From contig CP150183.1 of NCBI GenBank assembly GCA_037965595.1, forward strand, positions 2,046,001 through 2,110,000: a DNA stretch of 64,000 nt. The letters are read 5' to 3'. Made by a program: the position numbers and the translations under genes. Position 1 is the stretch's first letter, and every line of letters starts with the position of its first letter. Of this stretch, positions 1,272 to 50,745 are shown piece after piece. This DNA comes from Alkalihalobacillus sp. FSL W8-0930 (GTDB taxonomy: Bacteria; Bacillota; Bacilli; Bacillales; Bacillaceae_D). The notes under the pieces were generated by a model, which worked only from the letters and a program-made list of their open reading frames with translations, ran no database searches and had not been told where the DNA came from.

Positions 1272-4200
1272 TTAATCATCAGAGTCTTTTCGTCTATTTT
1301 TAAGAAGATCTTCAAGTGCATCTAAAATTTCATCTTTTGAGAGATTAGATGCTTCGTTTGATTTTTTCTTATCTTTATTTGGTGTCTGATTCAGATCCTC
1401 AGACTCGTTAGAAGATACGTAGTTAGTTAAATCCTCTTCCTTTTTTACTTCCGGTAATATAGGCGTCTCTTGTTCACTCTGAGTTAAGTGCTTAGGCTCA
1501 GGTACTTCATAATAGTCACCCTCAACCGTTGTTACATAATTCTGCCTGCGTCTTGTTTCTTTATCAAGCAAGCTATAGACAACTGGGATGACAAATAGCG
1601 TTAACAACGTTCCACTAATTAATCCTCCAATAATCGCAATCGCCATTGGTTGTTGGAATTCGGACCCTTCACCAATCGCAAGAGATAAAGGAACCATTCC
1701 AAGGATCGTCGTGGCAGATGTCATAACAATTGGCCTCGTACGAAGCTGAACAGATTCAATTAAAGCCTGGTACGTAGACATTCCCTTTTCCTTCATTTGG
1801 TTTACAAAGTCAAGCATGACAATACCGTTGTTTACAACAATACCAAGCAAAATAATCAATCCGATAAACGTTGTGATCCCGATTGCCGTTTGAGTGACCA
1901 CTAGGGCAATGGATAACCCAATGACAACAAGCGGCACTGTAAACATAATGATAAATGGAAGCTTTAATGATTCAAACTGTGCAGCCATAATTAAATAGAT
2001 AAAGATGGCAGCTAGGACAATCGCTAAAATCATACTATTGATTGAATCATCCAGTATTTCCTGTTCCCCGCCATACGTAAATGTTGTTGCTTCATCAAGT
2101 TCAATGTCATCTACGATCGTATCCACTGCAGAGCGGATGGCGCTAAGATTACTTGCTTCTGTATATGTGACAGTAAATTCAACTGCACCTTCTTGATTTA
2201 ATCGTTGTATAGATGCAGGACTCATACCCTCTTCAATAGAAGCCACTTCATTTAGAGTAATGAATTCACCTTCAGCATTACGAATGGTAAGATTTTCGAG
2301 TTCCTCTGTGCTTTCTGTTGATTCAGGTGCTAGGCGAACCAGGACTTCAAGGAATTGATCTTGCTCTTCAATAACTGTGGCTATTTCTCCTCTTGTTGCT
2401 GTGTTTACCTGCTGTGCGATTTCAGATGGCGTTAATCCATTTGTACGAGCTGCTTCTTCATCAATCGTAAGAAGAATTTCAGGTACTTGTTCTTCAATAC
2501 TTAGTTCAATATCACGAACCAATCGTTCATCATTTAATTCAGCTTGTAATTCATCAGCCTGTTCATAAAGTCTTTCTTGATTTGAATCGGTTAACGTAAA
2601 CTGTAGCGTGTTTGCTTCTCCTCCAAATGCAGCAGAAGCTGTATATGCTCTAATTTCAGCATTGGAATCCGCACGCTCTATTTCACGTTCTATAGACTCT
2701 AAAAAGGCAGCCGTGCTTTGATTTCGATCATCTGGATCGACCATAGATACCGTAATCTCAGCCGTATAGCTTGAATTACTTCCGCCCATCATCTGATTGT
2801 CACCAGACCCGGCAGTACTTACATAATTATCAATCTCTCGATACCCATCTAAAATCTCTTCTATTGATTCAACCGTTTCTTGCGTTCGTTCTAAACTCGT
2901 ACCAGGTTCTAACTCAATATCTACAAAAAACGTACCTTGGTCACTATCAGGGATAAGCTCCGTTCCAACCGTGGTTAAACCAAATATTCCTGCAACTAAA
3001 AGAATAAACGTGATAGCAAGCACTGTGAATCGATGTTTTAGCGACCAAATCGTTGACTGTCTCAACCCTTCCATCACTCTAGATGTTCGGCGCTTAGACT
3101 CTGTTTCTTCATTTGGTTTCTTAAGTAATCGGCTTGCAAGCATCGGTACAACCGTTAATGCGACAAGAAGAGAGGCTATTAAACTAAACGAAACCGTGTA
3201 CGCTAGCTCTTTGAATAAATCACCTACAATTCCACTGATAAACACAATCGGTAAGAAAACAGAAACAGTTGTTAGCGTAGAGGCGATAATTGCTCCACTT
3301 ACTTCTTTTGTACCGTCGAACGCTGCTTGCCTTGGTTCCTTTTTCATAGAAAGATGACGGTAAATGTTTTCAATAACAACGATCGCATTATCGACTAACA
3401 TCCCGATCCCAAGCGCAAGACCGCCTAAGCTCATAATGTTAAGTCCGATATCAGCGAAAAACATGAATCCAAACGTAACGATAACCGAAAAAGGTATGGC
3501 GATTCCTACAATAAAAGGAGTTTTAAGGTTGCGCAAGAAGAATAACAAAACAACCATAGCCAATAATCCACCATAGATCATAGCACTCGTCACACTATTA
3601 ATAGAGGCAGATATAAAATCTCCTTCATCATAGAGAATTGCTGCTTCAAGATCCTCATATTCTGAGTCAAGTAACAATTCTTCTAGCTGCTCATTCACAG
3701 CATTTGAAATCTGTACGGTGTTTGCTCCAGATTCTGGCATGATACTTAGTTGAATCGCTTCCTGTTGATTGGATCGTGTAAGCACTTCTTGATCTTCAAG
3801 TGCTACTCTAACCTCTGCAACGTCCGTTAATGTCAGTTCGTCACCTGTAGGGTTCACTCCAACAACTAGTTCTTCTAATTCTTCGACGTTTGAGAGCTCT
3901 TTTACAACTCTTGTTGTTAAACTCAAATCATCTCGTTTCACCGTTCCACCAGGAAGTGAAATATCACTGCCTTGAATAGCTGAGACGATCTCACCTTGAC
4001 TCAATCCTGCTTCTTCTAATGATTCGGGATCAAGGTCCACTTGTATTTCTTCTGACAAGCTACCACTTTCTCCAACACTTGCTACACCTGGAATTCGAAT
4101 AAGTTCATCTTCAAGATCAGATACCTTATCTTGAAAATCAACCAGATCCTGATTTGATGTAACAGCCATTTGAATTAAGGGCATCATGGATGGATCAAAT

Positions 4201-4577
4201 TTTACAAAACTTGGTTCATTTGCGTCAGAGGGGAGATTCGCACCCCGTAAAGTATTAATAATATCAAGTTCTACATCTTCAATATTAGTTGACCAGTCAA
4301 ACTCTAGAATAATCATGGAAGTGCCTTCCATGGAATTAGAGGTCATGTTTTTTAAACCTGAGGTTGTTGATAACTGTTGTTCGAGGGGGATTGTCACCGT
4401 ATCTTCTATTTCGTTCGGGTTCACATCGCTGTAACTCGTAATAACGGCGGCTACAGGAGGGTTAATTTCCGGAAATAATTGAAGCGGCAACCTCGTTAAT
4501 GCCACTATACCGATGATAATAAACAGGACCATTCCTACTAATGTAAAAATAGGCCTTCGGATCGAGAAATTGATCAT
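1272..4577 (-). CDS. RND family multidrug or lipid exporter (AcrB/SwrC type)
   Basis: The 1101-residue protein has the RND layout: one N-terminal membrane helix (about 10-30), a large extracytoplasmic loop to about residue 335, six helices with the conserved LGIGMLVDNAIVVIENI segment, a second large loop, then six more helices with GIVVNNGIVMLDFV. Substrates are expelled using the proton gradient. No HlyD-type adaptor or outer-membrane factor gene is adjacent, as expected for Gram-positive RND pumps such as SwrC of B. subtilis, which handles surfactin. A hydrophilic tail of roughly 75 residues after the last helix ends in a helical EILDALEDLLKNRRKDSDD. The gene stands alone between sspN and acnA. 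The substrate cannot be told from sequence. Confidence 0.9.
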   Translation of the reverse strand: MINFSIRRPIFTLVGMVLFIIIGIVALTRLPLQLFPEINPPVAAVITSYSDVNPNEIEDTVTIPLEQQLSTTSGLKNMTSNSMEGTSMIILEFDWSTNIEDVELDIINTLRGANLPSDANEPSFVKFDPSMMPLIQMAVTSNQDLVDFQDKVSDLEDELIRIPGVASVGESGSLSEEIQVDLDPESLEEAGLSQGEIVSAIQGSDISLPGGTVKRDDLSLTTRVVKELSNVEELEELVVGVNPTGDELTLTDVAEVRVALEDQEVLTRSNQQEAIQLSIMPESGANTVQISNAVNEQLEELLLDSEYEDLEAAILYDEGDFISASINSVTSAMIYGGLLAMVVLLFFLRNLKTPFIVGIAIPFSVIVTFGFMFFADIGLNIMSLGGLALGIGMLVDNAIVVIENIYRHLSMKKEPRQAAFDGTKEVSGAIIASTLTTVSVFLPIVFISGIVGDLFKELAYTVSFSLIASLLVALTVVPMLASRLLKKPNEETESKRRTSRVMEGLRQSTIWSLKHRFTVLAITFILLVAGIFGLTTVGTELIPDSDQGTFFVDIELEPGTSLERTQETVESIEEILDGYREIDNYVSTAGSGDNQMMGGSNSSYTAEITVSMVDPDDRNQSTAAFLESIEREIERADSNAEIRAYTASAAFGGEANTLQFTLTDSNQERLYEQADELQAELNDERLVRDIELSIEEQVPEILLTIDEEAARTNGLTPSEIAQQVNTATRGEIATVIEEQDQFLEVLVRLAPESTESTEELENLTIRNAEGEFITLNEVASIEEGMSPASIQRLNQEGAVEFTVTYTEASNLSAIRSAVDTIVDDIELDEATTFTYGGEQEILDDSINSMILAIVLAAIFIYLIMAAQFESLKLPFIIMFTVPLVVIGLSIALVVTQTAIGITTFIGLIILLGIVVNNGIVMLDFVNQMKEKGMSTYQALIESVQLRTRPIVMTSATTILGMVPLSLAIGEGSEFQQPMAIAIIGGLISGTLLTLFVIPVVYSLLDKETRRRQNYVTTVEGDYYEVPEPKHLTQSEQETPILPEVKKEEDLTNYVSSNESEDLNQTPNKDKKKSNEASNLSKDEILDALEDLLKNRRKDSDD

Positions 4578-4696
4578 ATAAGCTTAGCCTCCATCTTCCA
4601 TTTTTATGTATTCTCTATGTACCTAGTCCAACTATACATACATTCCCTTCTTTTTAAAACTAAAAACCCCTCTATACCATATGAATAAAGATAAAC

Positions 4697-4730
4697 AAAA
4701 AAAGAACAGTCCGATAACCAGACTGTTCTT
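4697..4730 (-). terminator. Rho-independent terminator after acnA
   Basis: AGAACAGTC and its complement flank an 8-9 base loop, and the minus strand continues with seven T residues. Confidence 0.85.
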
Positions 4731-4743
4731 ACATTCAATTTAA

Positions 4744-7455
4744 TTAAGCTAGCTTACTGCGAAGTACCATCGGAAGAATACCACCATGACGATAGTAGTC
4801 TACGTCAACTTCACTATCAAAACGAACAAGTGCTTCAAACGTTGTTACAGCACCATCTTCAGCAGTAGCTGTTACAGTTACATGCTCACGTGGCTTCACA
4901 TCGTTTGTAATATCAACACTAATTGCTTCTCTTCCAGTTAACCCTAGAGATTCAGCGTTGTCTCCATCTTTAAATTGCAATGGAAGCACACCCATTAACA
5001 CAAGGTTACTACGGTGGATACGCTCATAGCTCTCTGCGATTACAGTTTTAATTCCAAGAAGGTTTGTTCCTTTTGCTGCCCAGTCTCGTGAGCTTCCCAT
5101 CCCGTAGTCTTTTCCTGCAAGGATAGCAAGTCCAGTTTGAGATTCTTTATATTTCATTGCTGCATCGTAAATTGGCATCACTTCTTCAGTTGGCCAGAAA
5201 GTTGTAAATCCACCTTCAGTACCAGGTGCTACTTCGTTACGAATACGAATGTTAGCGAACGTTCCACGCATCATTACTTCGTGGTGACCGCGTCTTGAAC
5301 CGTATGAGTTGAAATCACGCGGTTCAACGCCTTTATCCATTAGGTATTTACCTGCTGGTGTTGTTTTACCAATGGCTCCCGCTGGTGAAATGTGGTCGGT
5401 TGTTACAGAGTCACCAAACTTACAGATTACACGAAGATCAGAAAGAGAGTGAATATCTTGAGGCTCTTGTGTTAATCCTTCAAAGTAAGGAGGATCTGCA
5501 ATATAAGTTGAATCCTCATCCCATTTGTATAGAGAGTCATCCGTTGTTTCGATTTCATTCCAACGCTGGTTCGCAGTAAATACATCCGCGTATTGTTGTT
5601 TAAATAGCTCTGGAGTTACTGTTTGAGCTACAACTTGCTTCACTTCTTCTGTAGAAGGCCAAATATCTTTGAAGAATACATCATTTCCATCTTGGTCTTT
5701 TCCAAGTGGATCATTCTTCAAGTCAACATCAACCGTACCTGCTAATGCATAAGCTACAACTAGAGGCGGAGAAGCAAGATAGTTTGCTTTCACAAGTGGG
5801 TGAATACGTCCTTCAAAGTTACGGTTACCCGAAAGAACAGATGTAACAGTTAAGTCATTTGAAGAAATAGCCTCTTCCACTTCAAGTTCAAGTGGTCCAG
5901 AGTTACCAATACATGTTGTACAGCCGTATCCAACATTATTGAATCCAAGAGTGTCCATATACGATTGAAGTCCTGCTTTTGCAAGATATCCTGTTACAAC
6001 CTTTGAACCTGGTGCAAGAGATGTTTTCACATACTCAGGAACTGTTAATCCAAGTTCTACAGCCTTTTTCGCAACAAGACCAGCACCAAGCATTACATAT
6101 GGGTTGGAAGTGTTTGTACAACTTGTAATCGCTGCAATGGCAATTGCACCCGTTTTCATCGTTGCTTGACGTCCATCCTTATACTGTACATCAACGACTT
6201 TATCGAATTCTTTTTTGTCGAGACCAAGTCCTTGTGTACCAGACGGAGCAACAACTGCTTTTTTAAATTGTGACTGCATATCTGTCAGTTTAATCAAATC
6301 TTGAGGACGCTTTGGACCTGAAAGATTTGCTTCAATTTCAGAAAGATCAATCTCCACAATATCTGTGTATGTTGGGTCAGCTGTTTCACCCGGTACATAA
6401 AATAGGCCGTTTGCTTTGTTATAATCTTCAACAAGTTGAATTTGTTTCTCATCACGACCTGTAAGTCTCATATAGCTAAGAGCTTCCGTATCAACTGGGA
6501 AGAACCCACATGTTGCACCGTACTCAGGAGCCATATTTGAAATCGTTGCGCGATCAGCTAGAGGCATTTCAGAAAGTCCCGGTCCAAAGAATTCAACAAA
6601 CTTTCCTACAACCTTTTTCTCACGAAGAACCTGAGTAACCTTCAACGCAATATCAGTAGCTGTCGTACCGCTTGGAAGATTTCCAACAAATTTAACCCCT
6701 ACAACTTCAGGCACAGGGAAGTATGATGGCTGTCCAAGCATTCCTGCTTCAGCCTCAATTCCACCTACACCCCAACCTAGTACGCCGATACCATTAATCA
6801 TTGTTGTGTGGGAGTCTGTTCCAACAAGAGTATCTGGGAACGCAATCGTATCTTCGCCTTGCTTAACAGCTTGTACAACGTTTGCAAGATATTCTAAGTT
6901 CACTTGGTGAACAATTCCCGTTGCAGGTGGAACCGCTTGATAATTATCAAACGCTTTTTTCGCCCAATTTAAGAATTCGTAACGTTCTTCGTTACGTTCA
7001 AATTCAAGATTCATATTAAATGCTAATGAGTCATCTGTTCCAAATTTATCAACTTGAACAGAGTGGTCAATGACTAGATCAACTGGAATTTCCGGGTTAA
7101 TCACTGCTGGATCCCCGCCCAGTTTCGACATAGCTTGTCTAAGTGCAGCTAAGTCTACAACTGCAGGTACTCCCGTGAAATCCTGAAGAATCACTCGAGC
7201 AGGTTTAAATGGAACATCAATTTCTTTTTGACCTGACGATCCCCATTGCGCTAAGTTTTCAACATGCTCTTTTTTAATCACATAGTCGTCATATTGACGT
7301 AGTACGGATTCAAGGAGCACTCTCACTGAAAAAGGTAGCTTGCTAATTTCTCCAAGACCAGCCTTCTCTAGGGCTTCAAGTGCATAATAGTGGTAGGTTT
7401 CTCCCCCGCTTTGAAAGGAAGAACGTGCATTAAAAACATCGTTACTTTTTGACAT
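4744..7455 (-). CDS. acnA: Aconitate hydratase
   Basis: This 903-residue enzyme interconverts citrate and isocitrate in the TCA cycle and, as an apo-protein, can bind RNA in Bacillus. The Fe-S cluster ligands are visible in SCTNTSNP and in CTTCIGNSG; further landmarks are [22 protein letters not shown] and [15 protein letters not shown] in the swivel domain. Length fits the monomeric AcnA/CitB family. The start has GGAGGGTTTAAC before the ATG. It is monocistronic, with a strong terminator behind it. The divergent 200-bp region toward sspP would carry its promoter; in B. subtilis citB answers to CcpC and CodY, but I did not identify those sites here. Confidence 0.97.
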
Positions 7456-44430: not shown

Positions 44431-44450
44431 AAAGCGGCATCAGCCGCTTT
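44431..44450 (-). terminator. Hairpin at the rny stop codon
   Basis: AAAGCGGCTGATGCCGCTTT with a TATTTTG tail on the minus strand; the stem reaches the stop codon. Probably partial termination before ymdB. Confidence 0.6.
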
Positions 44451-46017
44451 ATTTCGCATACTCAACTGCCCGTGTTTCTCGAATAACGGTTACTCGAATA
44501 TGTCCTGGGTAGTCAAGCTCGTCTTCAATTCGTTTGGTGATGTCACGCGCCAGCTTATGGGCAAGTGTATCATCAACAAGATCTGGTCGAACCATGATGC
44601 GAATTTCTCGGCCGGCTTGAATGGCGTACGTTTTTTCGACTCCTTCAAACGACTCTGAAATTTCTTCTAGCTTTTCTAAGCGACGGATGTACGTCTCAAG
44701 TGTTTCTCTACGTGCTCCTGGACGGGCTGCAGATAATGCGTCGGCCGCGGCCACAAGTGTAGAAATCACTGATGTGGACTCCGTATCACCATGGTGAGAG
44801 GCAATGGCATTAACAACAACAGGATGTTCCTTGTACTTTGTTGCCAGTTCTACACCAATTTCAACATGACTTCCTTCAACTTCATGGTCAATTGCTTTAC
44901 CGATGTCGTGCAGGAGACCAGCTCGTTTAGCCAGCTTCACATCTTCACCAAGTTCAGCAGCCATCAATCCACTTAGATGGGCAACTTCAATGGAATGTTT
45001 AAGAACATTTTGCCCATAACTTGTACGAAATTTTAGACGACCTAAAATTTTGATTAAGTCAGGGTGAAGTCCATGAATGCCCATTTCAAATGATGTTTGC
45101 TCACCATATTCGCGAATTGCTTCATCAACTTCACGACGAGATTTATCAACCATCTCTTCGATCCGCGCCGGATGAATTCTCCCGTCTTGAACTAACTTCT
45201 CAAGGGCGGTACGCGCAATTTCACGGCGAATTGGATCAAATCCAGAGAGGATAACAGCTTCAGGTGTATCATCAATAATGAGATCAATTCCTGTTAAGGT
45301 TTCAAGCGCACGAATATTACGGCCTTCACGCCCAATAATTCGACCCTTCATTTCATCGTTAGGTAAGTTCACTACTGAAACCGTAGTTTCAGCTACGTGA
45401 TCGGCTGAACAACGTTGCACAGCAAGAGAAAGAATTTCCTTCGCTTTCTTATCAGCTTCTTCTTTCGCTTGAGCTAAACGCTCTTTTGCAAGTAGAGCTG
45501 TCTCGTGTGCAATCTCTTCTTCCACTTCAGCTCGAACAGATAGTCTCGCTTCCTCACGACTCATACCAGATATGCGCTCCAACTCATGCTGTTGCTTCGC
45601 TATGAGCTCATCCACTTTACTGTTCATCTCTTCAATTTGTCGTTGTTTTTTGGTGAGAGATTCCTCCCTTTTTTCCAAAGACTCTTCTTTTTTATCAAAG
45701 GTTTCGCTTTTTCGGTCTAGAATCTCTTCTTTTTGTACCAAACGATGCTCTTGTTTTTGAATCTCATTTCTACGTTCACGAACTTCACGCTCTGCTTCTG
45801 TACGAAGGGTATGAACTTCATCCTTTGCTTCAAGGATAACTTCCTTCCGATTCGCTTCCGCATTACGTTTTGCATCTTCTACGATTTGATTCGCAGCATG
45901 CTCCGCGCTTACGATCTTCGCTTCTGCAATGGATTTTCGAACAAGATATCCAACAACTGCAGCTACTGCAGAGACAACAAGTATAATGAGGATGAGCATA
46001 TACAATGGTATATCCAT
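44449..46017 (-). CDS. rny: Ribonuclease Y
   Basis: 522 residues. An N-terminal membrane anchor (about 4-24), a long charged coiled coil (30-200), a KH domain ([17 protein letters not shown]) and an HD domain ([27 protein letters not shown]). It starts decay of many mRNAs at the membrane. RicA, a specificity factor, is encoded nearby. Confidence 0.97.
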
Positions 46018-46175: not shown

Positions 46176-46835
46176 TCAAGCTGTGGAAATGGGTGTGACT
46201 TCGCTTATTCCGTCGCGAATGGAAACCTCAAACGCTTGATCTGCAGACTCTGTTAAATGATGATTATGTGTAACCATGATAATTTGTCTACCAAACATCG
46301 TGCTTAATGATTTCAAAAACTCATATAAGTAGTAAACATACTCATTCGATACGTGTTTTCCAGGTTCATCTAATATTAAAGGTCCGCTTACTTTTGGTTG
46401 TACCGTTTCCATTAACGCTACTCGTAATGCAAGTGTCACAATATCAACTACACCACCACCACGTGAATCCTGAGGTTTGGTTTTCACTTGAACACCCTCA
46501 TACTCCGTTGTTACATAAAACTCAGCAACCGTCCGATTCCCATGGTCTTCTATTTCAATCTGGAACTGAAACAAAGGTCCAAATACGTATTGAAGTGCAT
46601 TGGTTACCAGTGTCTCCATTTGTTGACGGGCTTGCTCGCGTGCATACTCAGCTGATTGCTGCAGAAGAACGCGCGCTTTTTCATAGACATCAATTGTATC
46701 TAAGTATTCATTAAGCTTTGCTTCCGCTTGTTCTAATTGATCAACTAGCACTTGACGCCTGGCATCCAGTCTTGTCCATGTATCGCGCGCGTGCTTAATG
46801 GTTTCTTCGAGCTTAACTAGTTCCTCACGCATCAT
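46176..46835 (-). CDS. C-terminal half of a split SbcC/Rad50-like ATPase
   Basis: 219 residues. The first 85 form an amphipathic coil (EELVKLEETIKHARDTWTRL ... ARQQMETLV). Then come a signature-like segment DSRGGGVVDIVTLALRVAL, Walker B with catalytic Glu in GPLILDEPGKHV, and an H-loop in IIMVTHNHHL. There is no Walker A. It therefore supplies the C-lobe of an SMC/Rad50-type head whose N-lobe is made by the gene at 47101. It overlaps the small coiled-coil gene by 11 bp. The pairing is inference from motifs and gene order. Confidence 0.8.
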   Translation of the reverse strand: MMREELVKLEETIKHARDTWTRLDARRQVLVDQLEQAEAKLNEYLDTIDVYEKARVLLQQSAEYAREQARQQMETLVTNALQYVFGPLFQFQIEIEDHGNRTVAEFYVTTEYEGVQVKTKPQDSRGGGVVDIVTLALRVALMETVQPKVSGPLILDEPGKHVSNEYVYYLYEFLKSLSTMFGRQIIMVTHNHHLTESADQAFEVSIRDGISEVTPISTA

Positions 46836-47079
46836 TCTTAATCAGCTCTTTTGGTATAAGCGACCATGTCTCACTCATCGCTTGCTCAACTTCTGATTCC
46901 AGTTTTTTAATTTCACTTTCTAACTCATCTGGACCAACGCCTAGCTCCTCTAACTCTTTTAAAATACGATCGCGTTGATTTTGTAGCTCCTCAAGCTTTG
47001 CTTCTGCCCGGTACCTCATATCTCTCGCCTGATCAATCGCTTGCTTCATCTTTGTTAAATCTTGCTCAATTGTACTCAT
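46825..47079 (-). CDS. Small coiled-coil protein of the split Rad50 set
   Basis: 84 residues, nearly all predicted helix with heptad spacing (MKQAIDQARDMRYRAEAKLEELQNQRDRILKELEEL ... ELESEIKKLESEVEQAMSE). I recognise no family. ATG at 47077-47079 is 9 bases after GGAG; a GTG two codons earlier is too close to that site. It lies between the two ATPase halves, 21 bp after one and overlapping the other, and could be part of the returning coil arm. That role is inference. Confidence 0.75.
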   Translation of the reverse strand: MSTIEQDLTKMKQAIDQARDMRYRAEAKLEELQNQRDRILKELEELGVGPDELESEIKKLESEVEQAMSETWSLIPKELIKNDA

Positions 47080-47100
47080 TTGCACGCACTCCTTTCGTAT

Positions 47101-48528
47101 TTACCCGTGGTTATGACTAGCCTGTATAACTTGACCACAGGTCGGACAAATGCCGTCTTTCTTAGCTAGCTCCTCATACTGAAGAGTTAAGCGTTTAAGC
47201 TCTTTCTTCTTCATTTCGATAAATTGTTTTCCATCATTCATTCGCTTAAGAACTTCTGTATATTCTTGTTTCTTTTCAAGCATACGCAGGTATCGGTTAT
47301 ATGTCTCGTTTATCGACTGTACTTTAGAGGTTACATTCTCTATTTGCGCTACACTCTCTAATTGTTTTTCTTGTTTTATGCGTTGGTTCTCTAAAGCCAC
47401 ATATTGATCGTTAAGAGAAGTCAATCGCTTTATCCGTTGTCCCGTTTGTTTAATTGATTCTTCCCAGTTAGAAGAAATGTGAGTAACAAACGTTGTCTTT
47501 TCAATCACTTGAGAGGCTTTTTGCTCAATCACTAATAACTGAGTGTATTGATCGTGTAATTTGACTAATTGAGCACGTTTTTGTTCAAGAGCCTCTGCGC
47601 GCCTTTCCGTTTCGGCTGCCTCTTCAATAGACTCCGTAAGTCGTAAAAATCTCTCGACTTTTATCAGCTGACCCATATAGGTTTGTTGCTGTTCATAAAG
47701 CTTTTTTAGCATGCTTTGTCGTTGGATCTTTAATTCAAGCTGATACACCATCGATTCAATGTTAGGTAATTCTTTTAGAGAATCTATCTTACCTTGGGCT
47801 TGATCCATCAGCTGTTTGTTTGTTTGTAAATCTCGATGACTCGCTTGCAAGCTTTCAAGCCTCGATTGCTTACCCTTTATCTCTTCAAACAGTCGAGATG
47901 CCCTCTCAAGCTGTACACCTGATTGAATCACTTTTTCGTAAGGCTCAAGATCTTTCTTTAACTGTTCTGTTTGCTCCTCGCTCCATCTTTTACTTTGATT
48001 AAGCGAATGAAGGTCTCTTGAAGTGTCTCGAATGGCCGCATCTAAATAATGCGCCCCACTAATGCGTCCGATTGTTTTTGCACGCATGGATCCGGGTTGT
48101 TCAAGCAAAAAAGGTCCATCTAGCTGTTGCGCAAGATGAATCGTTAATTCATGATCCCGGTCAATACGTAACGGTCGCATCCCGTGTAGATCGAGTACCT
48201 CTTGGGGAACATGCTGACCAAAGCTCTCAAAAACTTGTTGATCTTGTCCATTTTTCTTTATGATGTACCGGTTCTTTGAAGCCGTTCGCTCACGTATCAA
48301 TCTGTCTCCACTTTCAAATTGAATCGTTACCCTTACAAAGTCACTGCCCGCACGAATAAAATCTGTACCCCGCGGCTGGTTAAATAGAGCCCAGCGAATT
48401 CCACGAATTACAGCTGTTTTCCCGCTATCAGATTGACCAATTAAGACATTAAGGCCATCTGCAAACGTAAATTGAGAGTCAAGATGAGATTGAAAGTTTT
48501 CCAGTCTTACGTCTAGGATGTTATTCAT
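47101..48528 (-). CDS. N-terminal half of a split SbcC/Rad50-like ATPase with zinc hook
   Basis: 475 residues. It opens with VRLENFQSHLDSQFTFADGLNVLIG, then Walker A GQSDSGKTAVIRG and a Q-loop region (LFNQPRGTDFIRAG), the AAA_23 N-lobe of SbcC/Rad50/SMC proteins. Residues from about 165 to 455 are a long coiled coil. The chain ends in ICPTCGQV (Cys461, Cys464), the CxxC zinc hook that lies mid-chain in normal Rad50. There is no signature or Walker B. It overlaps the upstream nuclease gene by 8 bp. Confidence 0.85.
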   Translation of the reverse strand: MNNILDVRLENFQSHLDSQFTFADGLNVLIGQSDSGKTAVIRGIRWALFNQPRGTDFIRAGSDFVRVTIQFESGDRLIRERTASKNRYIIKKNGQDQQVFESFGQHVPQEVLDLHGMRPLRIDRDHELTIHLAQQLDGPFLLEQPGSMRAKTIGRISGAHYLDAAIRDTSRDLHSLNQSKRWSEEQTEQLKKDLEPYEKVIQSGVQLERASRLFEEIKGKQSRLESLQASHRDLQTNKQLMDQAQGKIDSLKELPNIESMVYQLELKIQRQSMLKKLYEQQQTYMGQLIKVERFLRLTESIEEAAETERRAEALEQKRAQLVKLHDQYTQLLVIEQKASQVIEKTTFVTHISSNWEESIKQTGQRIKRLTSLNDQYVALENQRIKQEKQLESVAQIENVTSKVQSINETYNRYLRMLEKKQEYTEVLKRMNDGKQFIEMKKKELKRLTLQYEELAKKDGICPTCGQVIQASHNHG

Positions 48529-49513
48529 CTACCTCACCTCCCCAGCTTTCCTCTACTTGGGTCATTCTCCGAAGCGCTTCCTGCTTTACGCGTTCTTCTA
48601 CTTCTGATAATGATGCAAGTTCGCGAATGATATCATTCATGTGTAAATTCTTGAAATCACTTTGAGCCTTCACTTGCTGGACAAATTCGTGTAGCTTCTC
48701 TTCTTGATGGACCGCTTTTTCTACATAGGTTCGATCGAGCACTTCCTCACCCTTTTGAGCAGTTTCAAGCACTTGTTCTCTTAAAGTAATGCCTGATTTA
48801 GTAACCTCACCAATCACAACCTTAGGCATCCTGTTAAGCTCCATCCAGTGATTATTAATGCGAGAAAGGGCACCGGGATTGCAAATAAACTTCCCGTCCT
48901 GCTCCTTAATTCCAAAACCACCATGAAAATGACCGGTTAAAACCACATCAGCAGGTGTTGTCCAAATATGATCGACAAGTGTATGAGGAATTCCCTCTGG
49001 CAGTGCCTTTTCAACTAACATACTGTGTACAAGGTGAATCATATAATCTGCTTGGTGCTGATTTATAGGATAATAATCTAGTTTCACATCTCGTTGATCT
49101 AAATCATAATGATAAGGTTGTCCAGAAATTTGAACAGACACATCTTCTTTTTTAATAAGCAGAGGTTCGTCAGGATGTATGATAGTCATGATTCCAAACG
49201 AATCTAATAAGCCTAGCATCGTCCTAGAAATGGTATCAGGATTATGACCGAACGTGTCATGGTTTCCGGATATTGCATAAATAGGGATATTCGTTTCACG
49301 AAAGAGCTTGGCAAATTGTCCAACCACATTTGGAGATAAGTCCGGCCGATCAAATACGTCTCCTCCATGAAGCATCAAATCTACCTTTTCTGTTTCCGCT
49401 ATTTGCATCACTTCTGTTAGTTTACGTTTGATCGTCTCTGAAAAGGAATCTAATCTGTTTTTTGGAGTCGTCCCTCGAATATGCGTATCTGTAAAATACA
49501 GAAATTTAATCAC
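48521..49513 (-). CDS. SbcD/Mre11-like metallophosphoesterase
   Basis: About 330 residues. Phosphoesterase motifs are complete: FTDTHIRG, LHGGDVFDRPD, SGNHDTFG and LTGHFHGGFG. The C-terminal part is helical (EKLHEFVQQVKAQSDF...), as expected for an ATPase-contacting region. Likely a DNA end-processing nuclease that works with the Rad50-like halves encoded directly downstream. The start appears to be GTG at 49511-49513 behind GAGGTGATTACA; a GTG three codons earlier overlaps that site. Confidence 0.85.
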   Translation of the reverse strand: MIKFLYFTDTHIRGTTPKNRLDSFSETIKRKLTEVMQIAETEKVDLMLHGGDVFDRPDLSPNVVGQFAKLFRETNIPIYAISGNHDTFGHNPDTISRTMLGLLDSFGIMTIIHPDEPLLIKKEDVSVQISGQPYHYDLDQRDVKLDYYPINQHQADYMIHLVHSMLVEKALPEGIPHTLVDHIWTTPADVVLTGHFHGGFGIKEQDGKFICNPGALSRINNHWMELNRMPKVVIGEVTKSGITLREQVLETAQKGEEVLDRTYVEKAVHQEEKLHEFVQQVKAQSDFKNLHMNDIIRELASLSEVEERVKQEALRRMTQVEESWGGEVDE

Positions 49514-49534
49514 TGTAATCACCTCAAACTGAAA

Positions 49535-49561
49535 AGAATAAGCACCATACGGCGCTTATTC
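49535..49561 (-). terminator. Hairpin after recA
   Basis: GAATAAGCGCC / GGTGCTTATTC stem (one G-U) followed on the minus strand by TTTTC. It separates recA from the nuclease gene. Confidence 0.75.
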
Positions 49562-49571
49562 AGCTACGATT

Positions 49572-50621
49572 TTATTTAAGATCTAATGGAACGTCTTCAA
49601 ATTCTTTTTCATCTGGTACTGGTACCTCTACTTGACCATCTAAGCCATGATGTGCACGAATTAGTCCTTCAATTTCAGCCATCATTTCAGGATGCTCTTT
49701 CAAGAAAATCTTAGAGTTCTCACGTCCTTGACCGATCCGCTCTTCTTTAAAGGAATACCAAGCTCCACTTTTCAAAACAATATCCAAATCTGCCGCAATA
49801 TCAAGAACAGATCCTTGTTTTGAAATTCCTTCTCCGTACATAATATCCACTTCAGCTTGTTTAAACGGTGGTGCTACTTTATTCTTCACAACTTTAATTC
49901 GCGTTTTGTTCCCAACCATGTCGTTCCCTTGTTTTAATGTTTCGGCACGACGTACTTCAAGGCGAACAGAAGAATAGAATTTAAGCGCACGGCCACCTGG
50001 TGTCGTCTCAGGGTTTCCGAACATTACACCGATTTTCTCACGAATTTGGTTAATAAATAATGCAATCGTTTTTGATTTGCTGATGGCACCGGAAAGCTTA
50101 CGAAGTGCTTGAGACATTAGGCGAGCCTGAAGTCCTACGTGACTATCACCCATGTCACCCTCGATCTCTGCTTTTGGTACAAGTGCAGCAACACTGTCCA
50201 CTACAATAATATCAACTGCTCCACTTCGTACAAGTGCTTCAGCAATCTCAAGTGCCTGCTCTCCTGTATCTGGTTGAGACAATAATAACTCTTCTACATT
50301 TACACCTAGTTTTTGAGCGTAAACTGGATCAAGTGCGTGCTCGGCATCGATAAAAGCAGCTGTTCCACCATTAGCTTGTACTTCTGCAATGGCATGAAGG
50401 GAAACGGTTGTTTTACCAGAAGACTCTGGTCCGTATACTTCGATGATACGGCCGCGAGGATACCCGCCTACTCCTAGTGCAATATCTAGTGCAAGAGATC
50501 CACTTGAGATCGTAGCGATACGCTGATCTGTTTGATCTCCTAGTTTCATAATTGAACCTTTACCGAATTGCTTTTCAATTTGGCGAAGTGCCATATCTAG
50601 TGCTGCTTTACGATCGCTCAT
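49572..50621 (-). CDS. recA: Recombinase RecA
   Basis: 349 residues. Walker [10 protein letters not shown] (64-72), the [15 protein letters not shown] strand, the L2 loop [21 protein letters not shown] and the C-terminal acidic tail are all present. It drives strand exchange and LexA self-cleavage. The start has AGGAGAGATTTAA upstream. Confidence 0.98.
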
Positions 50622-50731: not shown

Positions 50732-50745
50732 CGAACATTTATTCG
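50732..50745 (-). promoter_or_regulatory. Putative LexA box upstream of recA
   Basis: On the minus strand CGAATAAATGTTCG fits the Bacillus SOS box (CGAAY-N4-GTTCG) and is like the B. subtilis recA box CGAATATGCGTTCG. It is about 110 bases before the recA start. Confidence 0.75.

Follow-up and report, generated by a model that had tools for sequence, protein, structure and literature searches.

In the SbcCD and Mre11-Rad50 complexes, which repair DNA breaks, an Mre11-type nuclease works with a one-chain ATPase, in which Rad50-like lobes I and II are joined by a coil that bears a CxxC zinc hook at its middle. How the Rad50 coil and zinc hook communicate with the ATPase head is debated. The locus described here lies in a stretch of 64,000 nucleotides from Alkalihalobacillus sp. 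FSL W8-0930 (contig CP150183.1, positions 2,046,001 to 2,110,000), hereafter the window, in whose coordinates all positions are given. Four tightly packed minus-strand open reading frames (ORFs) occupy 46176-49522, flanked by recA and rny. Unlike in SbcCD, the two ATPase lobes are on separate chains, the cut falls at the hook and there is an extra coiled-coil protein. It was concluded that the locus probably encodes a split Mre11-Rad50-like (SbcCD-like) complex with a housekeeping role in these bacteria.

Division of the ATPase among the genes

The genes read, in order, as an SbcD/Mre11-like nuclease, a chain with ATPase lobe I, coil and terminal zinc hook (N-chain), a short coiled-coil protein (MID) and a chain with proximal coil and lobe II (C-chain), which is the set that an earlier note had proposed from this DNA. 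The nuclease ORF (48521..49522, minus strand, as are all features below) encodes 333 residues from GTG 49522, the likelier start being GTG 49513, 6 nucleotides past GAGGTG, which is also the coordinate given in the earlier note. The N-chain (47101..48528) has 475 residues, MID (46825..47085) has 86, with ATG 47079, preceded by AAAGGAG, as its likelier start, and the C-chain (46176..46835) has 219. The close packing and the position beside recA that the note described were borne out as well: nuclease and N-chain overlap by 8 base pairs (bp), N-chain and MID are separated by 15 bp, and MID and C-chain overlap by 11 bp, while the recA ORF (49572..50621) is directly upstream and the rny ORF (44449..46017) downstream. 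The motifs place lobe I with its Walker A, coil and hook on one chain and lobe II with Walker B on another, with the MID gene between them and an Mre11-type nuclease alongside.

The nuclease matches Pfam Metallophos (3.4e-13), and in alignment its Mre11-type phosphodiesterase active-site residues are intact; eight residues are invariant in 74 bacterial nucleases and less so in the viral ones. C-terminal helices are predicted at residues 265-287, 295-305 and 310-328, and alignments with Mre11 structures extend as far as residue 330 only where the root-mean-square deviation is high (3tho_B, 8.6 Å).

In the N-chain, Walker A (GQSDSGKT, residues 31-38; 48415..48438) is followed by a long coil and by CPTC, the zinc-hook motif, at residues 461-464 (47137..47148), 11 residues before the stop, an arrangement that agrees with the earlier description. 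Apart from gap rows (2 bacterial, 1 viral), every aligned row has Lys37 of Walker A (76/76 bacterial, 88/88 viral). Gln135 (48124..48126), a Q-loop-like residue by its position in comparison with Rad50, is glutamine in 76/76 bacterial (2 gap rows excluded) and 88/89 viral rows. A CxxC is found in the last 60 residues of 75/77 bacterial N-chains (longer than 300 residues, E<1e-20) and 88/89 non-redundant viral N-chains (E<1e-10; 45/45 long and 43/44 short), ORFs cut by contig ends being excluded. The two bacterial N-chains that lack it are short ones of 336 and 374 residues, possibly truncated. The N-chain matches AAA_23 (8.6e-10) and phrog_16465 of PHROGs (1.7e-70), and with profiles of relatives lobe I matches Rad50 chains of the PDB (E 4.2e-15, best stretch residues 4-50).

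The C-chain matches phrog_15167 (4.2e-68) and, with profiles of relatives, lobe II of Rad50 chains of the PDB (1.2e-9). Its Walker B region, LILDEP (46362..46379; LDEP at residues 155-158), its H-loop His190 (46266..46268; VTH at residues 188-190) and the lack of a Walker A in its 219 residues were as the earlier note had stated, but the signature that it reported reads RGGGV (46449..46463) where LSGGE is expected. Asp156 and Glu157 of Walker B are kept in 79/79 bacterial and 77/77 viral C-chains, His190 in 79/79 and 75/77, and GGG of the signature in 79/79 and, per position, 73-76 of 77. In an ungapped stretch of a profile alignment with Pyrococcus Rad50, Gly126 aligns with the signature Ser (79/79 bacterial and 75/77 viral sequences have Gly) and Ser163 with the D-loop Asp (Ser in 79/79 and 74/77); a reading of the signature change as Ser to Arg was dropped, since this alignment puts Gly at the Ser position. 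Thus Walker A and the Gln loop in lobe I, and Walker B and the H-loop in lobe II, are as in SbcCD/Mre11-Rad50, whereas the LSGGE/Q signature and D-loop Asp of those complexes are RGGGV and Ser in the split module. In the passages available of a study of Pyrococcus Rad50, change of the D-loop Asp to Asn or Ala, Ser not being among the changes, gave faster ATP hydrolysis and a smaller closed population (PMC7049730). Because signature and D-loop, which close canonical Rad50 around ATP, are both altered, the split complex may cycle faster or engage differently around ATP.

MID matches phrog_18563 (3.7e-7), and a MID match was obtained in 175/186 loci that hold both N- and C-chain. The search, by HMMER without filters, covered only short ORFs up to 3 kb upstream of C and its count was not blind, so the order of MID before C is partly by construction. 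The median head-to-hook coil is ~295 residues in 74 bacterial loci; among viral loci it is 302 in the long form (42 loci) and 175 in the short form (33 loci). Medians in the same loci are 77-85 residues for MID and 204-223 for the C-chain, whose coil spans ~80 residues (predicted helix 576-655 in a modelled read-through). We infer that MID is part of a divided arm. It is not claimed to be a paralogue of the C-chain coil, the evidence being too weak for coiled coils: hhalign gave MID a probability of 81% when compared with the C coil by itself and of 42% with the complete C-chain, and MAFFT, which placed MID rows on the C coil, misplaced N-chain rows there too.

Structure prediction of a read-through of a relative, in which the lobes are covalently joined, gave a composite head with long helices (predicted template modelling score, pTM, 0.52), and N- and C-chains are predicted to join into one ATP-binding cassette (ABC) head. 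The pairing of the 475- and 219-residue proteins that the earlier note envisaged is thus supported as far as a composite head is predicted, but only in the joined form of a relative. Its central proposal, that an SbcC/Rad50 chain is split into three polypeptides, is supported by complementary motifs, the order of N before C, the composite-head prediction, natural fusion and near-exclusion with SbcC. In a working complex, two composite heads would engage around ATP, with a nuclease dimer docked at the coil roots; two N-chains would pair by Zn binding at their terminal CxxC motifs, and MID would brace the descending arm or form its continuation. As ATP drove the heads together and apart, DNA ends or hairpins would gain access to the nuclease, and in these bacteria the complex would take on the housekeeping function of SbcCD alongside RecA. 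The split complex is likely to work like SbcCD.

Recurrence in bacteria and phages

The locus recurs at recA-rny and in phages and is not peculiar to the genome of the window. Counting the window, 17/298 same-order genomes encode a full-length homologue of the 475-residue protein, the open frames being 475-501 residues long, and the order recA-nuclease-N-MID-C-rny is found in the window and in all 16 relatives fetched; hence the arrangement is not due to chance or sequencing error. When named bacterial genomes were scanned for the C-chain, 188 relatives were returned, Alkalihalophilus pseudofirmus OF4 and Halalkalibacterium halodurans among them, and 80 were kept. Both recA and rny flank 70 of these loci, recA only 4, rny only 1 and neither 5, so that recA is beside the module in 74/80 and rny in 71/80. 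The hosts include alkaliphilic Bacillaceae, the C-chain being 98% identical to that of Alkalicoccobacillus gibsonii, Thermoactinomycetaceae and Clostridia-like lineages. N precedes C in every locus of the gene-order survey that holds both.

The search of relatives and phages for the same gene order, which the earlier note had suggested, thus found the order kept in the 16 relatives, and the phage relatives that it thought possible exist, for example in Bacillus phage vB_BboS-125 and Microcystis phage Mvi-JY20 (in the latter the MID profile search gave no match). Scans of viral contigs yielded 44 loci with the C-chain and 85 with the N-chain (80 kept), partly on the same contigs; the same contig was returned repeatedly, and non-redundant here means that identical sequences were removed. 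The order is N-C-nuclease in 63 of 127 viral loci and N-nuclease-C in 40, the other 24 being partial, fused or different. In vB_BboS-125 an AP2-domain gene lies between N-chain and MID. Such a gene is annotated at this position in L018 (7416-7988), and similar genes were seen by eye in L138 (4292-4816), L143 (4151-4675) and L158 (4784-5293); with AP2-like genes between N and MID in four viral contigs, the module evidently accepts other genes among its own.

Loci with exactly one C-chain and one nuclease (182, or 155 after removal of identical pairs) were used for an unrooted tree of the two proteins. In it 76/76 bacterial loci group in a clade with a single viral locus (support 0.98), and 33/34 short-coil viral loci fall in another (support 0.92). 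Loci L193-L244 have short viral N-chains of 300-420 residues with a shorter coil, form a separate clade and are mostly of N-nuclease-C order; some short-form loci of this set have a single Cys in MID.

Natural fusions join parts of the module. Nuclease and N-chain are fused in two viral contigs; in one of them, L122 (218,948 bp), the fusion ORF is at 2636-4945 and the C-chain has its own ORF at 5962-6672. By its size this contig may be Bacillus phage 0305phi8-36. A 2011 report on that phage, in the passages available, describes an Mre11/Rad50 fusion without one P-loop segment and mentions no separate lobe II gene (PMC3175470), whereas L122 has a separate C-chain; a gene like that of L122 would explain the missing segment. 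Three genomes from a single family (G341, G594 and G656; loci L249, L251 and L250) have one chain of ~700 residues that comprises nuclease, lobe I and lobe II, which links these three parts functionally. Both the long coil and the hook are absent from the fused chains, and the stretch gave no MID match, so that in these three genomes MID is missing along with the coil. The fused chain resembles a minimal Mre11-Rad50-like enzyme.

Relation to SbcCD and rival explanations

The C-lobe is present in 65/398 same-phylum genomes, the 3 fused ones included, with an N-lobe match in all 65. At E up to 1e-20, canonical SbcC was seen in 166/398, namely in 2/65 carriers vs 164/333 others (Fisher test, p 2e-14), and canonical SbcD (E up to 1e-18) in 3/65 vs 165/333, the SbcC and SbcD searches having scored 2 and up to 6 candidates per genome, respectively. 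In the two carriers with SbcC, G394 has an internal stop in its C-chain and G678 has phage gene order. Within the order, SbcC is missing in 12/17 carriers vs 23/281 other genomes, and G107 and G212, of the same genus, have one system each. In the genome of the window, no SbcC match reaches E 1e-20 (best partial match 7.9e-13), the sole SbcD-like match up to 1e-5 is the split module's own, and an AddA-like gene scores below the cut-off of that model. A 1004-residue ORF (L245:2854-5868) was set aside as a candidate SbcC, its match being weak and N-terminal (7.9e-13) and its ends, by eye, of another ABC-ATPase type. This ABC-type ATPase ORF, which is outside the window, and an adjacent 590-residue ORF (G000:C1, ~1516000-1521400) look by eye like a defence or mobile pair. 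The split module is near-exclusive with canonical SbcC and seems to stand in for SbcCD; if it does, it would account for 63/232 sampled genomes seemingly without SbcC.

Two explanations would return the three genes to a single chain. That a single-chain SbcC gene was disrupted by a recent mutation, or only seems so through an error of sequencing, might be read from the shared frame of N-chain and MID in the window, one stop and five codons apart, and from L091 (3276-5651) and L095 (3132-5651), the only 2/72 loci in which all three genes share a frame with only stops between. However, 16 relatives of the same order show the split just as the window does, no ORF with both lobes was seen in 224 loci, which were chosen by likeness to the split proteins, and over 72 loci the N to MID frames scatter (37/19/16, 16 being in frame). 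The explanation is rejected by this conservation across genera and phages, and next to no weight is left to it; the frameshift error that the earlier note had named as a refutation is excluded by the open frames in the 17 genomes and the order of the 16 relatives. Programmed read-through or frameshifting that yields a full-length Rad50 could draw on the same short in-frame spacings (N to MID in 16/72 loci, the 2 loci in frame throughout), but frames are not conserved, for MID to C either (58/10/4), and in some phage loci other genes lie between N and C. Read-through in a conserved single frame is rejected as a rule, and programmed recoding altogether is very improbable.

Two further explanations accept the split and differ on function. 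SMC-like defence complexes exist (SMC, structural maintenance of chromosomes; PMC10586767), and the best defence matches are PADLOC LmuB for the N-chain (9.8e-13, 46.1 bits) and mads_3 for the C-chain (3.4e-9), so that a Lamassu-like system against phages or plasmids, rather than housekeeping repair, might be supposed. This is improbable, given that Rad50 models outscore on the N-chain (56.7 bits), 70/80 named bacterial copies lie at recA-rny, 76/76 bacterial loci share a clade with a single viral locus, and phages carry the module too. A Rad50-like complex with a distinct recombination task, such as RecA loading or end tethering, in which the nuclease is structural or of other specificity, would fit the recA linkage, the altered signature and D-loop, and the retention of canonical SbcCD in 5/17 same-order carriers; it is nevertheless unlikely, since the nuclease residues are intact and, across the phylum, the module and canonical SbcC or SbcD nearly exclude each other.

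Several points weigh against a split complex that acts as SbcCD. Signature Ser and D-loop Asp are both replaced in the C-chain. The arms of the long form are unequal (N coil ~295 residues vs MID ~85 plus C coil ~80), so that the extra N coil must serve something else, although equal arms are possible in the short form. In the model the read-through joined the lobes covalently, which favours pairing, and pTM was only 0.52; the global template modelling score in Foldseek was low (0.33 for the first match), and SMC heads rank above Rad50 there, so that the predicted fold does not single out Rad50. The nuclease scores 40.6 bits on TIGR00619 (curated cut-off 77.65), and TIGR00618, whose cut-off is so strict that 0/298 same-order genomes pass, is absent among the 12 matches of the N-chain and among the 25 of 27 C-chain matches listed. 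The Fisher tests ignore phylogeny, the 65 carriers include the 3 fused genomes, and some carriers probably hold prophage copies, because of the gene orders in 14 fetched carrier loci (3 fused, 8 nuclease-N-MID-C, 2 N-MID-C-nuclease and 1 without a nuclease seen) and the scarcity of recA there (in the stretch in 4 of the 8 nuclease-N-MID-C loci, 4/14 overall). Split module and canonical SbcC occur together in 5/17 same-order carriers, and 169/398 same-phylum genomes have neither at the thresholds used, for which a third arrangement or the thresholds may account.

A bolder form of the split Mre11-Rad50 reading, for and against which the case is evenly poised, is that this is an old form of Rad50 whose chain is cut exactly at the hook, that MID completes the arm, and that the split complex fills the housekeeping Mre11-Rad50 role in up to ~1/6 of the phylum, where it replaced or preceded single-chain SbcCD. 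If the coil is indeed discontinuous, signals between hook and head would not run along a covalent chain. Single-chain Rad50 cannot be dissected unbroken, and a natural form cut at the hook would let its pieces be removed, swapped and mixed; comparison with the short-coil phage forms and the coil-less all-in-one form could show how far coil and hook are needed.

Transcription signals and place among known systems

The 49-bp gap between the recA and nuclease ORFs holds a weak terminator-like hairpin (49536..49561, minus strand), such hairpins being found 2 times in the window vs 3.7 expected in shuffles. None of seven promoter-like sites falls in this gap, one weak site being near the recA end, and co-transcription of recA and the module by read-through past the hairpin is plausible. 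Beside a recA promoter-like site (50723-50695) is a LexA-box-like sequence with one mismatch, CGAATAAATGTTCG (50732..50745, minus strand), a pattern that, with up to 2 mismatches allowed, is no commoner in the window than chance predicts (19 sites vs 19.0 expected).

No description of a split SbcC/Rad50 was found in searches of open PMC papers, judged by titles, abstract starts and passages. PHROGs 16465 ('exonuclease'), 15167 ('ATPase') and 18563 (unknown), which N-chain, C-chain and MID respectively match best in that library, are named apart there, with nothing on one split Rad50. With the defence complexes Lamassu and Jet the module shares SMC/Rad50-type heads and coils, but most of its named copies are at recA-rny and it is also found in phages. 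With SbcCD/Mre11-Rad50 it shares the Mre11-type nuclease, the Rad50-like lobes I and II, the coil, the predicted composite head and the CxxC hook, which is at the end of the N-chain and not mid-coil. Because its ATPase is not one chain, its signature and D-loop differ and it falls short of the curated SbcC and SbcD models, it is not filed as a member of the SbcC family but is taken as a new form of the Mre11-Rad50 kind.

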